A stretch of 41,884 nucleotides of DNA from an uncultured Candidatus Saccharibacteria bacterium (GTDB lineage Bacteria > Patescibacteriota > Saccharimonadia > Saccharimonadales > Saccharimonadaceae): NCBI GenBank assembly GCA_946415265.1, contig CAMKRV010000005.1, positions 1 through 41,884 on the forward strand, given 5' to 3'. The position numbers and the translations under genes are program-made. Numbering within the stretch: the stretch's first letter is position 1; every line of letters begins with the position of its first letter. The notes beneath the pieces are model-generated. The model had not been told where the DNA came from, did no database searches, and saw nothing but the letters and a program-made list of their open reading frames with translations. Positions 11,349-28,574 of the stretch are shown here, piece by piece.

Positions 11349-11575
11349 TGCAACATTCTAATTTAAAAGAACCAGAGGTTTTTATTAGCCTATGGGATAT
11401 ATGCACAATATAATTGGCATCGTAAGGTTTCCAATTTGCGCATACTATGGGTTATATAACTTTGGTTCACAAATTAGGATGTTGCACCCCTTGCGGTGCC
11501 ATTTTTGTTAATCCCCATTAATATAGTGGCACCACATGGGGGAGTAGTAGTAATCATATATAAGTGAGGTAAAAG
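11349..11575 (+). ncRNA. Structured 5' leader RNA, copy 1
   Basis: TATAAT at 11338; P1 TGCAACATTCTAATTT (11349-11364) / AAATTAGGATGTTGCA (11471-11486); apical GGCATCGTAAGGTTTCC; GGTGCCA (11495) / TGGCACC (11527). Confidence 0.75.
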
Positions 11576-13096
11576 ATGGGCCACAAAGTAAAACAATCAT
11601 TAATGAGTAGTAGAATAGATTTCTTCTACTATGCTTTCCGTAATGTATTGTTAGTTTCTGTTCCTCTTCTCGTTATCTCTACCTTTATCCTTGGCTTCAG
11701 TGTTTCTCATAGCTCTGCTACAAACTCTGGTTCTGGCTCAGACAATCTCACTATTACTATCTCTTCTGCTTGTACATTAAGTAGTGTGGTAGATAGTGAA
11801 CATAGTACTAATACTAATGTGGGTACTTATACCAGTGATATAGGTAAAACTACCATTACCACACTATGTAATGATGGTAATGGGTATAGTGTATATGCAA
11901 TAGGATATAGTAATAATGAAGAAGGTAATAATAAATTAATCAATTCTGAAAGACCTGAGTATAGTATAGATACAGGATTGAATGCTAGTGGTCTTACATC
12001 TGCTTGGGCCATGAAACTGAATAATATACCAGACGATCCTTCTCCTACTCCACCTACTATAGAAAGTGATTACAATAATATTTATGGTATAGTACCACCA
12101 TATTGGACTAAGGTAGCTAGTAGAGCTTCTGGTACTACAGATATGGCACAAGGGTCTAGTTTTACTACTACTTATGCAGTATATGCTAGTTCTTCCCAGT
12201 ATGCAGGTACTTATCAGGGGCAGGTGAAGTATTTGCTGACGCACCCTAGTTCAGATGTAAAACATTTCTTTATGCAGGATATTGCTAACTGGGCTAATGA
12301 ACAAATACCCAACATAGGAGATACTATACGGGCCGTAGATCAAAGAGATTATAAAGGCTATTATGTTACCAGGCTAGCAGACGGGCATATCTGGATGACA
12401 CAAAACTTAGATTTTGACATAGCAGCCAATACTGTGTTTAACTCCCAAACTACAGACTTAAATGTAGCTTATGATTCTAGTACTGGACAATATGCAGAAT
12501 ATAGTGATGGATATACTGAAAATAATGGTACCATTTACTGGGAGCCAGCTAGCACAGCTACTACTATAGACTTTACTGGCACTACTGTTACTGATTGGCA
12601 GAATAGTAATACTGCACCATATACTGCTAATAAGACAGACGATACTGGTACAGGACATAATTCACTAGGTAATTACTATAACTGGAGTGCAGCCATAGCT
12701 TCTAATGACTCTTCTTCATTAACACAAAATACAGTAAGTGATATATCTAAGAATCCTAAGAACTCTATTTGTCCTAAAGGTTGGAGGTTGCCTACTACAT
12801 CTAATCAATCCGGAGCATTATCTGGCTCTACTAATGAATTTGCGAGGTTGAATTATTTGTACAATAACAATAAGACTACCACAGATGCAGGGATAATCGC
12901 ATCCCCATTGTACTTTAATAATTCGGGGATCGTCCTCAATAGTACCCTTGCTATGGGCGAGGGCGTATACTGGTCAAGTACAAATAATTCTTCAGGAAGC
13001 GCATATTTCTTCGCACATAAACCAGATCAGGTTAAACCAAAAGACGACTGGCATAGATATATCGGTATTTCCATTCGTTGCGTGACTAGAGAGTAA
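11576..13096 (+). CDS. FISUMP-domain secreted surface protein
   Basis: N-terminal hydrophobic segment (RNVLLVSVPLLVISTFILGFSVS), YYVTRLADGHIWMTQNLDFDI, ICPKGWRLPT, C-terminal SIRCVTRE. Confidence 0.85.
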   Translation: MGHKVKQSLMSSRIDFFYYAFRNVLLVSVPLLVISTFILGFSVSHSSATNSGSGSDNLTITISSACTLSSVVDSEHSTNTNVGTYTSDIGKTTITTLCNDGNGYSVYAIGYSNNEEGNNKLINSERPEYSIDTGLNASGLTSAWAMKLNNIPDDPSPTPPTIESDYNNIYGIVPPYWTKVASRASGTTDMAQGSSFTTTYAVYASSSQYAGTYQGQVKYLLTHPSSDVKHFFMQDIANWANEQIPNIGDTIRAVDQRDYKGYYVTRLADGHIWMTQNLDFDIAANTVFNSQTTDLNVAYDSSTGQYAEYSDGYTENNGTIYWEPASTATTIDFTGTTVTDWQNSNTAPYTANKTDDTGTGHNSLGNYYNWSAAIASNDSSSLTQNTVSDISKNPKNSICPKGWRLPTTSNQSGALSGSTNEFARLNYLYNNNKTTTDAGIIASPLYFNNSGIVLNSTLAMGEGVYWSSTNNSSGSAYFFAHKPDQVKPKDDWHRYIGISIRCVTRE

Positions 13097-21983: not shown

Positions 21984-22204
21984 TGCAACAATTAAATTTA
22001 TTTATCGCAATGCGCCAATATTTTTATATTGAGTATGTCAACAAAACGATAAACGGCACCGTAAGGAAATCCGACGTTTTGTTGGCCTATGCTAATAAAT
22101 AAGTTTGATTGTTGCACCCTTGCGGTGCCATTTTTGTTAATCCCCATTAATATAGTGGCACCACATGGGGGAGTTAGTAAAGCTAATTATAAGTGAGGTA
22201 AAAG
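21984..22204 (+). ncRNA. Structured 5' leader RNA, copy 2
   Basis: TACAAT at 21973; P1 TGCAACAATTAAATTTATTTAT / ATAAATAAGTTTGATTGTTGCA (22095-22116); CAACAAAACG/CGTTTTGTTG; GGCACCGTAAGGAAATCC; GGTGCCA/TGGCACC. Confidence 0.75.
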
Positions 22205-23764
22205 ATGGGCCACAAAGTAAAACAATCCTTAATGAGTAGTAGAATAGATTTCTTCTACTATGCTTTCCGTAATATATTGTTAGTTTCTGTTCCTCTTCTT
22301 GTGGTTTGTACTCTTATTCTTGGCCTTAGTGTTTCTCGCTCATCTGCGCGTATATCATCTAGTGATAATTTAGCTATTTCTGTTCCTAGTTCTTGTACTT
22401 TATCTAGTTCTGTAGATGAAGTTCATAGTGCTAGTATTATCAATGGTACTTATAGATCTAATATAGGAACCACTACACTATCTACCTTTTGTAATGATAA
22501 GAATGGTTATAGTGTTTATGCTATTGGTGATAGTTTTAATAGTGAAGGTAATAATACATTAGTTGGTAGTAATGGCAGTAATATAAGTAGTGGCACAGCT
22601 ACTTCAGGTGATACTTCTAACTGGGCTATGAAACTAGCTTTAAAAGCAGGTGATACTTCTACTACTCCACCTACTATCATTTCTCCATTCACTAATTATT
22701 CTACAGTACCTACTACTTGGACTAAAGTAGCTACTATACCATCTGGTACTACAGACATGGAAAAAGGATCATCCTTTACTACTACTTATACTACATATAT
22801 CTCTCCTACTCAAGCTGCAGGTACATACTTAGGGCAAGTCAAGTATCTACTTACTCATCCTTCAGCAGCAACTCCTACCAGTGCCTATATTATGCAGGAA
22901 GTAGCAAATTGGGAAGATGATTTATCTAGTCCTGGTGACAGTGTACAAGCTATAGATATTAGAGACGGCAAAGCATATTGGGTTACCAGGTTGGCAGATG
23001 GGCATATTTGGATGACACAGAACTTGGATTTTGATATAGACACCGCCAAAACTTATACTCATAACGATACGGACCTAGGCTGGGATCCAAATAGTTTTGA
23101 TAGTAATGCTACATGGAAACCAGATACCACTAATGGTAAATATAACCTACCAGTAAACGGTACTTCTGTTCCTGATTGGTCTAATCAAAATAACTATCCA
23201 TATTCTGCAGATCCAGGTGATGTATATTACTATACGTCTAATTCTGAAGCAAATGATATAAAATACAATTCACTATCTGAGTGTATAGCAGCAAATCATA
23301 CAGAAAAAGATTGTAAACGTTATCATGCTGGTAATTACTATAACTGGACTGCTGCTATAGCATCTAATAATTCTAGTAGTCTTACTACGCAGTACACTAA
23401 TGCTCCTAACTCTATCTGCCCAGCTGGCTGGCGATTGCCTATAGCTACTAATGCTGACCAATCCATTTATGAGTTTGGAGAAATGCTATATAGGCAAGGA
23501 ATAATAGGGAGTTCAGTGGATTATAAGTATACTACTAATGGGTTTAATAATATTCGTAAGGCTCCTTTATACTTAACTCGAGGGGGTTTTATAGATGGTA
23601 GTTCAATTATAAATAGTGGTTCCTATGGATCTTTACATGCAAGAACGACATATAATAATTCTGATTCTTATGGACTTATTTATGTCAAAACCGTCATCAG
23701 CATGCATAATTCATGGGATTTCTCTAAATCTTATGGAAAATTTATTCGCTGCCTGGCACAGTAA
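22205..23764 (+). CDS. FISUMP-domain secreted surface protein
   Basis: MGHKVKQSLMSSRIDFFYYAFRNILLVSVPLL; YWVTRLADGHIWMTQNLDFDI; NSICPAGWRLPI; KFIRCLAQ. Confidence 0.85.
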   Translation: MGHKVKQSLMSSRIDFFYYAFRNILLVSVPLLVVCTLILGLSVSRSSARISSSDNLAISVPSSCTLSSSVDEVHSASIINGTYRSNIGTTTLSTFCNDKNGYSVYAIGDSFNSEGNNTLVGSNGSNISSGTATSGDTSNWAMKLALKAGDTSTTPPTIISPFTNYSTVPTTWTKVATIPSGTTDMEKGSSFTTTYTTYISPTQAAGTYLGQVKYLLTHPSAATPTSAYIMQEVANWEDDLSSPGDSVQAIDIRDGKAYWVTRLADGHIWMTQNLDFDIDTAKTYTHNDTDLGWDPNSFDSNATWKPDTTNGKYNLPVNGTSVPDWSNQNNYPYSADPGDVYYYTSNSEANDIKYNSLSECIAANHTEKDCKRYHAGNYYNWTAAIASNNSSSLTTQYTNAPNSICPAGWRLPIATNADQSIYEFGEMLYRQGIIGSSVDYKYTTNGFNNIRKAPLYLTRGGFIDGSSIINSGSYGSLHARTTYNNSDSYGLIYVKTVISMHNSWDFSKSYGKFIRCLAQ

Positions 23765-26240: not shown

Positions 26241-26316
26241 TATAATTAAATTGTACCAACTAGGTACATTTTCGGGGATACCCGCCCGTCCTAATGTAAA
26301 TTAGGACTTATTTTTT
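26241..26316 (+). ncRNA. Candidate ~64-nt three-hairpin small RNA
   Basis: TATAAT 26241; hairpins GTACC-AACTA-GGTAC, CGGG-GATA-CCCG, GTCCTAAT-GTAA-ATTAGGAC followed by TTATTTTTT. Confidence 0.6.
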
Positions 26317-26714
26317 GACTTAAAAAGGTTACGAAGTCCTGCCAATACCTTTTCCAAATCAGATTCCGGCACTTCACCCATTTTATAGTGCAACCTATAT
26401 ACACTTATATTTTCTACCTGTGCTACCACTGCATATTCATTTTTCTTTCTAAACATAAACTTTACATACCAATTTCCAATATGTTTTTTAGATGTTAGTG
26501 GTACACCCACAAAATTAAATCTACTAAGTTTATTCACTATTAACACAGGCCTTAGAAAATCTTCACCTTTACCGCAAATCTCACTACCCACATTCTCGCC
26601 AATTTTGCACCACCATATCTCACCCTCCTTAATAGTTCTTAGAGATTTTTGAAAATGAATTTTCTCCTTTATTTCCATCCACCCTTTAAAGTTTTTCTTA
26701 CTGTTTTTATTCAT
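26301..26714 (-). CDS. PemK/MazF-like toxin-family protein
   Basis: IKEGEIWWCKIGENVGSEICGKGEDFLRPVLIVNKLSRFNFVGVPLTSK. Confidence 0.75.
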   Translation of the reverse strand: MNKNSKKNFKGWMEIKEKIHFQKSLRTIKEGEIWWCKIGENVGSEICGKGEDFLRPVLIVNKLSRFNFVGVPLTSKKHIGNWYVKFMFRKKNEYAVVAQVENISVYRLHYKMGEVPESDLEKVLAGLRNLFKSKNKS

Positions 26715-26755: not shown

Positions 26756-26889
26756 ATAGGCATAGAGTGATAAAAATTTCAACCCCTGAGGTACACTTAC
26801 GCTTTTGCGGGAATGCGTTTGCGCTTTTTTCAAAAATGCTTGCGGCAAAAATCTTCCGCACAAACCCGAATAATATGGTATGATTAAAG

Positions 26890-27101
26890 TGCAAACATTC
26901 AGTAATATTAAAAAATGCGTCAAACATTTTTTAGGTAAATTATCCAACCGCAGAATTGGCATCGTAAGGTGTCCACGGTTGGGTATTTGACGCAATTGCT
27001 GGATGTTTGCACCCTTGCGGTGCCATTTTTGTATACGCCTTTTCATATACTACAAAGATGGCACCGCATCCTAAGTGAAAACTTTAAGTGAGGTATATAG
27101 G
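26890..27101 (+). ncRNA. Structured 5' leader RNA, copy 3
   Basis: P1 TGCAAACATTCAGTAAT/ATTGCTGGATGTTTGCA; P2 TGCGTCAAA/TTTGACGCA; P3 CCAACCG/CGGTTGG; GGCATCGTAAGGTGTCC; CGGTGCCAT/ATGGCACCG; CCGCATCCTA/TAGGATGCGG over the start codon. Confidence 0.78.
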
Positions 27102-28574
27102 ATGCGGAAAATATACATATTATATATAGCAACAATTAGTATATTAAGTTTAGTATATATTAACAATACTTCTGCCTTAGACTATTCTAGTAATGTAGGA
27201 GTAGGGTTTACCTTTAATCCTGCATTATCTATTAGTCTTAGTTCTAATGACTTAGTTATTCCTAATCTAGTTCCTGGTAGCATGGAAGATAGTAATAGTA
27301 TTAATGTAAGTGTTGCTACTAATGCAGCGTATGGGTATACATTGTCTGCTAATGTTAATGATGAGAATTTAGTACATAGTAATAATATAGATACATTCAG
27401 TAGTATAGCTACTAATGCAGGTCTAGCTAGTTTAGATGATAGTGAAGATAGTAATATATGGGGATACTCTACTTCATTAGACAGTGGTGCTACTTGGTCT
27501 AATTATAATGGCTTATCTAGCAGTAATAGTACTACGCTATTAGACGCTAATAGTAATGTTTCTAGTAACCTAGACTTTAAGATAGCTGCTAGAGCATCTA
27601 GTACTCAGGCTAGTGGAACATATACTGGAGTGATTAACTTCATTGCAGTATCCAATGTAGCACCAATGAGTTTATTAGATTCCTTTATAGCTTCAGGAGC
27701 AGAACAATTAAATGGATACTTCAAAATGCAGGATATGACACATGATATATGTAATAACGTAGATGTAGAAGAATCAGAGCTACAACTTATAGACGTAAGA
27801 GACAACAAGATTTATTGGGTAGCCAAACTCAAAGATGGCAATTGTTGGATGACACAGAATCTTGATCTAGATTTATCGCATGAGGTGGCTTTGACGTCAG
27901 AGAACACTAACCTCAAAACCTATGCTCAAACTGGACCATATTCGCCAGAAGGGGGCTACTACCAAGATGACACAAACACTATCTACTGGGCGCCAATTAG
28001 GAGCACTACTTCCTCGCTCAATAGAAATAATTTCCCAGCAACTGTCGATGCTAACAATACCCCATATTCATATGACCCAAGCTCATTATACTACTACTAT
28101 GGGCCACCTTCTAATCCTGCAAACCACACCTTTTACTCATTAAGTACCTGCCAAAACGAAAACTATCCCAATTGTGAACGTTATCCAGCCGGCAATTATT
28201 ACAACTGGTCCGCCGCAGTAGCTAGTGATAATACCATTGGTTTTACAGAAACTAACACCTATGCCGATAATTCCATTTGTCCTAATAATTGGAAATTGCC
28301 AACATCCAACAACTTTAATACTTTAACTAAAACTTATGATATAAACAATAAGAATTCTTTAGACCTACAACTTAGCCCTCTCTGGTTTGTTCGATCTGGG
28401 TATATTCAAAATGGAGGCTCATCACCCTCTGGCACCTATGGTTGCTATTGGACCAATATATCAAGCAGCGATGGCTCTTCGGCCCAAAACTTATCATTCT
28501 TCAACGGTTTTATTAGCTCAACCAATACATACCAACGGAATCTTGGCCTTACAGTGCGCTGCATAACTGAGTAA
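27102..28574 (+). CDS. FISUMP-domain secreted protein with a divergent N-terminal domain
   Basis: MRKIYILYIATISILSLVYINNTSA signal; IYWVAKLKDGNCWMTQNLDLDL; NYYNWSAAVASDN; NSICPNNWKLPT; LTVRCITE. SD AAGTGAGG supports ATG 27102 over 27075. Confidence 0.85.
   Translation: MRKIYILYIATISILSLVYINNTSALDYSSNVGVGFTFNPALSISLSSNDLVIPNLVPGSMEDSNSINVSVATNAAYGYTLSANVNDENLVHSNNIDTFSSIATNAGLASLDDSEDSNIWGYSTSLDSGATWSNYNGLSSSNSTTLLDANSNVSSNLDFKIAARASSTQASGTYTGVINFIAVSNVAPMSLLDSFIASGAEQLNGYFKMQDMTHDICNNVDVEESELQLIDVRDNKIYWVAKLKDGNCWMTQNLDLDLSHEVALTSENTNLKTYAQTGPYSPEGGYYQDDTNTIYWAPIRSTTSSLNRNNFPATVDANNTPYSYDPSSLYYYYGPPSNPANHTFYSLSTCQNENYPNCERYPAGNYYNWSAAVASDNTIGFTETNTYADNSICPNNWKLPTSNNFNTLTKTYDINNKNSLDLQLSPLWFVRSGYIQNGGSSPSGTYGCYWTNISSSDGSSAQNLSFFNGFISSTNTYQRNLGLTVRCITE

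Follow-up and report, generated by a model that had tools for sequence, protein, structure and literature searches.

A multiplied leader RNA in front of FISUMP-type surface-protein genes of Saccharibacteria, probably an attenuator or riboswitch-like switch

How is a surface-protein gene controlled when its start codon lies within a perfect 10-bp helix? The question is raised by leader copy 3 in the window analysed here, a contig of 41,884 nt (C5) from a Saccharibacteria genome of 772,665 bases (G000; assembly GCA_946415265.1). A preliminary description had taken this copy for a regulatory leader in which the start-codon helix and an overlapping upstream helix compete as an expression platform. 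According to our comparisons, copy 3 belongs to a family of cis-acting leader RNAs that has not been catalogued and whose members probably attenuate transcription or act as a switch of riboswitch-like kind.

The leader is an RNA of about 140 nt with its own −10 box and a P1-P2-P3-P4 hairpin. The features of the window are as follows.

11349..11508, + strand: leader copy 1 (type 1); its gene lies at 11576-13096
21984..22137, + strand: leader copy 2 (type 1); its gene lies at 22205-23764
26876-26878, + strand: extended −10 TGG, read directly from the sequence
26879..26884, + strand: −10 box TATGAT, 5 nt before P1, read directly from the sequence
26890..26906, + strand: P1 5' strand; 17 pairs, all with double-sided changes in 80 independent copies
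26916..26924, + strand: P2 5' strand, from predicted fold and covariation
26941..26950, + strand: P3 5' strand, from predicted fold and covariation
26958..26969, + strand: segment A GGCATCGTAAGG, in apical hairpin P4 and complementary to B, from pairing counts in G000 and covariation elsewhere
26976..26985, + strand: P3 3' strand, from predicted fold and covariation
26986..26994, + strand: P2 3' strand, from predicted fold and covariation
26995..27011, + strand: P1 3' strand, from predicted fold and covariation
27009..27032, + strand: terminator-like hairpin T, GCACC-CTTGC-GGTGC followed by CATTTTTGT, from a terminator scan (27009-27023)
27013..27024, + strand: segment B CCTTGCGGTGCC, partner of A, of the P1 end (in T) or of C, from complementarity, covariation and duplex energies
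27058..27069, + strand: segment C ATGGCACCGCAT, a competing partner for B further downstream; its duplex with the P1 3' strand, B and U tract has an energy of about −29 kcal/mol
27064..27073, + strand: 5' arm of the start-codon helix, from direct sequence, sibling comparison and shuffles
27086..27093, + strand: Shine-Dalgarno sequence AAGTGAGG, read directly from the sequence
27098..27107, + strand: 3' arm of the start-codon helix, with the ATG at 27102-27104 within it, from direct sequence, sibling comparison and shuffles
27102..28574, + strand: gene after copy 3, encoding a surface protein of 490 aa with an N-terminal hydrophobic segment and a FISUMP-like (PF09603) C-terminus

The gene downstream of copy 3 is a member of the FISUMP family: the 490-aa protein scores 25.4 bits against PF09603 alone (cut-off 33.9) and 36.5 bits with its neighbours in frame. 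Immediately upstream of the leader, a PemK/MazF-like toxin gene (26301-26714, minus strand) is transcribed divergently. In public genomes, the conserved 3' segment of the leader was matched exactly mostly in Saccharibacteria assemblies, many of which came from small-intestine samples of cattle, goats and sheep.

Direct reading of the sequence bore out every position given in the preliminary description. The arms CCGCATCCTA (27064-27073) and TAGGATGCGG (27098-27107) form the start-codon helix and enclose the Shine-Dalgarno sequence in its loop, while the upstream helix pairs CGGTGCCAT (27018-27026) with ATGGCACCG (27058-27066). The P2 3' strand adjoins the P1 3' strand with no gap, and this 0-nt junction makes coaxial stacking of P1 and P2 plausible. 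The leader folds far below the energy of shuffled sequences (z = −8.4), and the start codon is 95% paired in the prediction. Base shuffles of the leader tail gave a Watson-Crick helix of 10 bp or more across the start codon in 1 of 3,000 trials and one of 9 bp or more in 5 of 3,000. Since the Shine-Dalgarno and start region is locked in this helix, copy 3 should translate poorly unless it is opened.

The proposed competition between the two helices held up less well. Their 3-nt overlap is present, but the minimum free energy structure holds both together, with a GGTGCC...GGCACC hairpin followed immediately by GCATCCTA/TAGGATGC and a loss of 1–2 bp per helix; the competition is therefore energetically marginal. 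The start-codon helix is also not a feature of the family. Sibling leaders mostly have 5–9 bp over the start codon, and no consistent helix was found there among the leader copies of other genomes. Among the 19 type-2 copies (start ATGCGG), the median helix run is 5 bp and the median predicted start accessibility 0.55; copy 3, at 10 bp and 0.05, has the longest helix and the least accessible start. Leader L104, which precedes the orthologous gene in another genome (G080), keeps 9 bp over the start codon with a different spacer, a single comparison that hints at selection on the helix. The lock is thus real, but it is a local extra of one leader copy among about 37. The earlier interpretation holds in part: it was right about a structured, regulatory-looking leader with mutually exclusive helices, but its choice of helices was weak, the start-codon lock being copy-specific.

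The family itself was delimited by several searches. A DNA search of G000 returned 37 related places, from which 37 leaders were extracted and read. A covariance model made from copy 3 alone (R1) found 37 copies in G000 and 38 in G080, counts that refer to draft genomes whose contigs are often broken at the leader repeat. Many G000 contigs (e.g., C4, C16, C18-C22 and C24) terminate shortly 3' of a leader, so that the copy number and some of the genes are probably undercounted. In the genus, R1 detected leader copies in 17 of 60 genomes, and a second model (R2), built from 80 copies of other genomes, detected the leader in 21 of 40 sampled genomes. Across the order, R2 found it in at least 29 of 293 genomes, including other genera and three other families, mostly once per genome outside the genus; the order and phylum searches scored 10 and 16 candidates per genome, respectively, and their counts are lower bounds. 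Among 191 genomes drawn across the phylum, matches were confined to the same genus under stricter filters that lose weak hits. Rfam 15 gave no relevant match for the window or for ten distant homologues, and assignment to a known Rfam class was rejected. Among the openly licensed literature, we found no paper on riboswitches or similar leaders of Saccharibacteria.

The leaders of G000 and G080 nearly always precede FISUMP-type surface-protein genes. In G000, the spacing between the −10 box and P1 is constant among the leaders, and a similar surface-protein gene follows wherever the contig extends far enough. Outside the genus, the downstream genes are heterogeneous and unrelated. The genes behind the leaders point to no ligand.

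The genes behind the leader carry the C-terminal domain of FISUMP/Fib_succ_major surface proteins or relatives of it, a domain (PF09603) that also occurs in targets of diversity-generating retroelements (PMC4159848). The leader RNA is part of none of the FISUMP or retroelement systems described in the papers found. Two such retroelements (L267 and L268; contigs C14:17908-20412 and C3:2133-5691) were observed in which a reverse transcriptase with the YVDD motif lies beside FISUMP genes; the differences between template and variable repeats fall at template adenines in 20/20 and 18/19 cases, and the template repeat and the gene have opposite orientations. The idea that leader-driven FISUMP genes are present retroelement targets was rejected: L029 differs from the template by 36 changes, and because 12 of these fall outside template adenines, it is not a simple current target.

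Stem alignments were taken from R1, as MAFFT alignments (A1 and A2) put P2 and P3 out of register. In 80 copies from other genomes, G000 excluded, 95.4% of the cells of P1-P3 and A:B were paired, and the covariation score was 0.738, slid partners reaching 0.074 at most; the alignment is fitted to P1-P4, which biases the pairing counts of these stems in their favour, whereas A:B was left out of the covariance model used for alignment. The stems are hypervariable in sequence yet remain paired across independent copies. For A:B alone, 96.7% of the cells in other genomes were paired; double-change cells numbered 18, compared with 2.9 in shuffles.

Within G000, A and B pair in 37/37 copies at 11 of their 12 positions and in 36/37 at the remaining one. 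The edge of the pairing is sharp, the next two positions being paired in 0 and 3 copies, and in L015 both the A and the B sides have changed. Furthermore, within genomes each A is a closer match to its own leader's B than to that of other leaders, the observed value being reached in 2 of 20,000 within-genome shuffles; the pairing is therefore in cis. The P4 hairpin, which covaries as well, uses the same A bases, and segment A accordingly has two fates on comparative grounds, P4 or A:B.

Strand B is claimed a second time by hairpin T, a GC-rich stem of 5–6 bp followed by U5, with the 3' half of B as its 3' arm and the P1 end as its 5' arm. Because both A:B and T need strand B, they are mutually exclusive. 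Among 123 copies of the genus, the T stem measures 5–6 bp in 98 and 2–4 bp in 25. A GC-rich hairpin with a U run thus lies upstream of the gene, as in an intrinsic-terminator attenuator, and A:B supplies an alternative structure, supported by covariation, that excludes it. Rough energies were about −14 kcal/mol for A:B, net of opening P4 and with the pseudoknot penalty not counted, and about −7.5 kcal/mol for T, a range in which a modest input could tip the choice.

Segment C is the third claimant. In most copies of the genus, its duplex with the P1 3' arm and B reaches roughly −16 to −44 kcal/mol, and C matches the copy-specific P1 3' strand in G065 (p = 0.0002) and G014 (p = 0.011). Copy-specific pairing of C was not significant in G000 (p = 0.19), where C is generic. 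The competition that evolution backs is that of A, the terminator 5' arm and C for B; the preliminary description had not noticed A:B.

Ten homologues from other genera or families retain an A:B pairing of 10–11 bp in altered sequence (CGGCACCGCA/TGCGGTGTCG, TGGCACCACGT/ACGTGGTGTCA and GGGCACCGTG/CACGGTGTCC are such pairs) together with a T stem of 5–6 bp. In each, a same-strand ORF begins 1–42 nt beyond the U run; in other families the gene start closely follows this run and there is no C strand. In distant homologues L251, L253, L257-L259 and L266, a strand like CTATGC or TGCGG stands in place of the U-rich J23; it can pair with A and is a further candidate partner.

Conserved leader bases lie mostly in A, B and the U run, with the U-rich J23 partly conserved within the genus. 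No highly conserved ligand pocket was seen in the leader copies, and A:B and T account for most of the conserved bases. The loop GGCRYCGYRAGG is GNRA-like within G000, but a GNRA tetraloop as the main constraint was rejected, since other genomes have ATTA, ATAG or ACTA there with A:B still paired. Between the 10th and 90th percentiles, P1 spans 15–21 bp and P2+P3 14–27 bp, and this variation in P2+P3 lessens confidence in a constant fold-back geometry. The position of TATAAT-like hexamers shows a sharp peak 11 nt upstream of P1, with a match of at least 5/6 in 66 of the 86 copies outside G000. In six copies (L019, L030, L071, L072, L082 and L101), an extra stretch of about 120–240 nt separates C from the gene and places the leader far from the start codon; some copies of this stretch have an inverted repeat of their own, e.g., TGATGTGATAA...TTATCACATCA.

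The probable attenuator could work as follows. Transcription would start at P1, and the RNA would fold into the long P1-P2-P3 hairpin with apical segment A held in the small hairpin P4. As B emerges right after P1, it could pair with A as a pseudoknot beside P1, or join the P1 end to form T with its U run. We infer that the pseudoknot would let the polymerase read through and that T would stop it, an input signal (ligand, protein, temperature or folding kinetics) biasing the choice. In many copies of the genus, the downstream strand C could then capture the P1 3' arm and B in read-through transcripts. Several observations count against this reading: the missing conserved ligand pocket, the variable length of P2+P3, the weakness of T and its shortened stem in some copies, the mixed genes that follow the leader outside the genus, and the covarying use of the A bases in P4.

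The main rival, which we consider unlikely, is a constitutive structural leader without switching, its hairpin and pseudoknot serving to shield the 5' end or to fix the expression level. The very stable fold, the promoter-like box at a fixed distance and the lack of an evident conserved pocket would suit it; against it, A:B, T and C share B in many copies and are each conserved or covarying, for which simple protection has no need. Distinctly improbable is the translational riboswitch of the preliminary description, with the start-codon helix competing against CGGTGCCAT/ATGGCACCG. The predicted pairing of the start codon, the rarity of a 10-bp helix by chance and the 9 bp retained in L104 speak for it, but the small overlap accommodated in a single structure, the absence of the long helix from most siblings and the genes of other families that begin just past the U run without a C strand speak against it.

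Short terminated RNAs that would use A and B to act on other leaders in trans are very improbable: the leader does have its own promoter and terminator-like end, and A and B are nearly universal within the genome, but they match copy by copy as cis pairing predicts, and the ten distant homologues likewise lie directly 5' of a same-strand ORF. Least probable is a DNA-level element, a recombination hot spot swapping promoters and leaders among surface genes, which would fit the mosaic build of copy 3 but leaves the compensatory changes that keep pairing, G-U included, and the precise promoter spacing unexplained. This mosaic emerged when 26876-27871 was compared with L071 and L104 of G080: copy 3 agrees with L104 in its gene half (27013 onward) and with L071, the leader of a different gene, in its aptamer half (26876-27033), and the two halves join within conserved B. 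Leader units have thus swapped their aptamer and gene halves at this point.

Little is known about how Patescibacteria regulate their genes, and genetic tools for them are scarce. About 37 copies of one structured RNA in a genome of 0.77 Mb, most of them in front of surface-protein genes, point towards common control of the proteins that face outward, an idea that ordinary RNA biochemistry could test with no culture of the organism. Should a ligand exist, it would be a signal by which these cells change their surface, and the leader would lend itself naturally to the building of inducible expression tools, which have been named as a need (PMC11665869). What is new is a previously uncatalogued structured leader RNA of switch-like build, multiplied onto a surface-protein family. 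More tentatively, it may represent an undescribed, order-wide class of Saccharibacteria RNA switches, with about 38 copies in some ruminant-gut lineages, through which one signal would set the expression of a large surface-protein repertoire in a probable episymbiont by a three-way choice of B between pseudoknot, terminator and downstream strand.

Among known systems, riboswitches of the preQ1-I, fluoride and ZTP types have a 3' strand that pairs into an upstream loop, the pseudoknot excluding an intrinsic terminator. The leader resembles these attenuators in that its 3' strand B pairs back upstream and sets a pseudoknot against a terminator. It differs in its much longer and variable hairpin (P1-P3, about 40 bp), the lack of an evident ligand pocket and of an Rfam match, the extra downstream competitor strand in the genus and its roughly 37 copies per genome. 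GEMM-I (c-di-GMP/cGAMP) riboswitches of Geobacter relatives place one RNA class before many surface or extracellular genes of a genome. Unlike GEMM-I, the leader has no match in Rfam scans and its copies precede one homologous gene family; like GEMM-I, it is multiplied over many surface genes in one genome.
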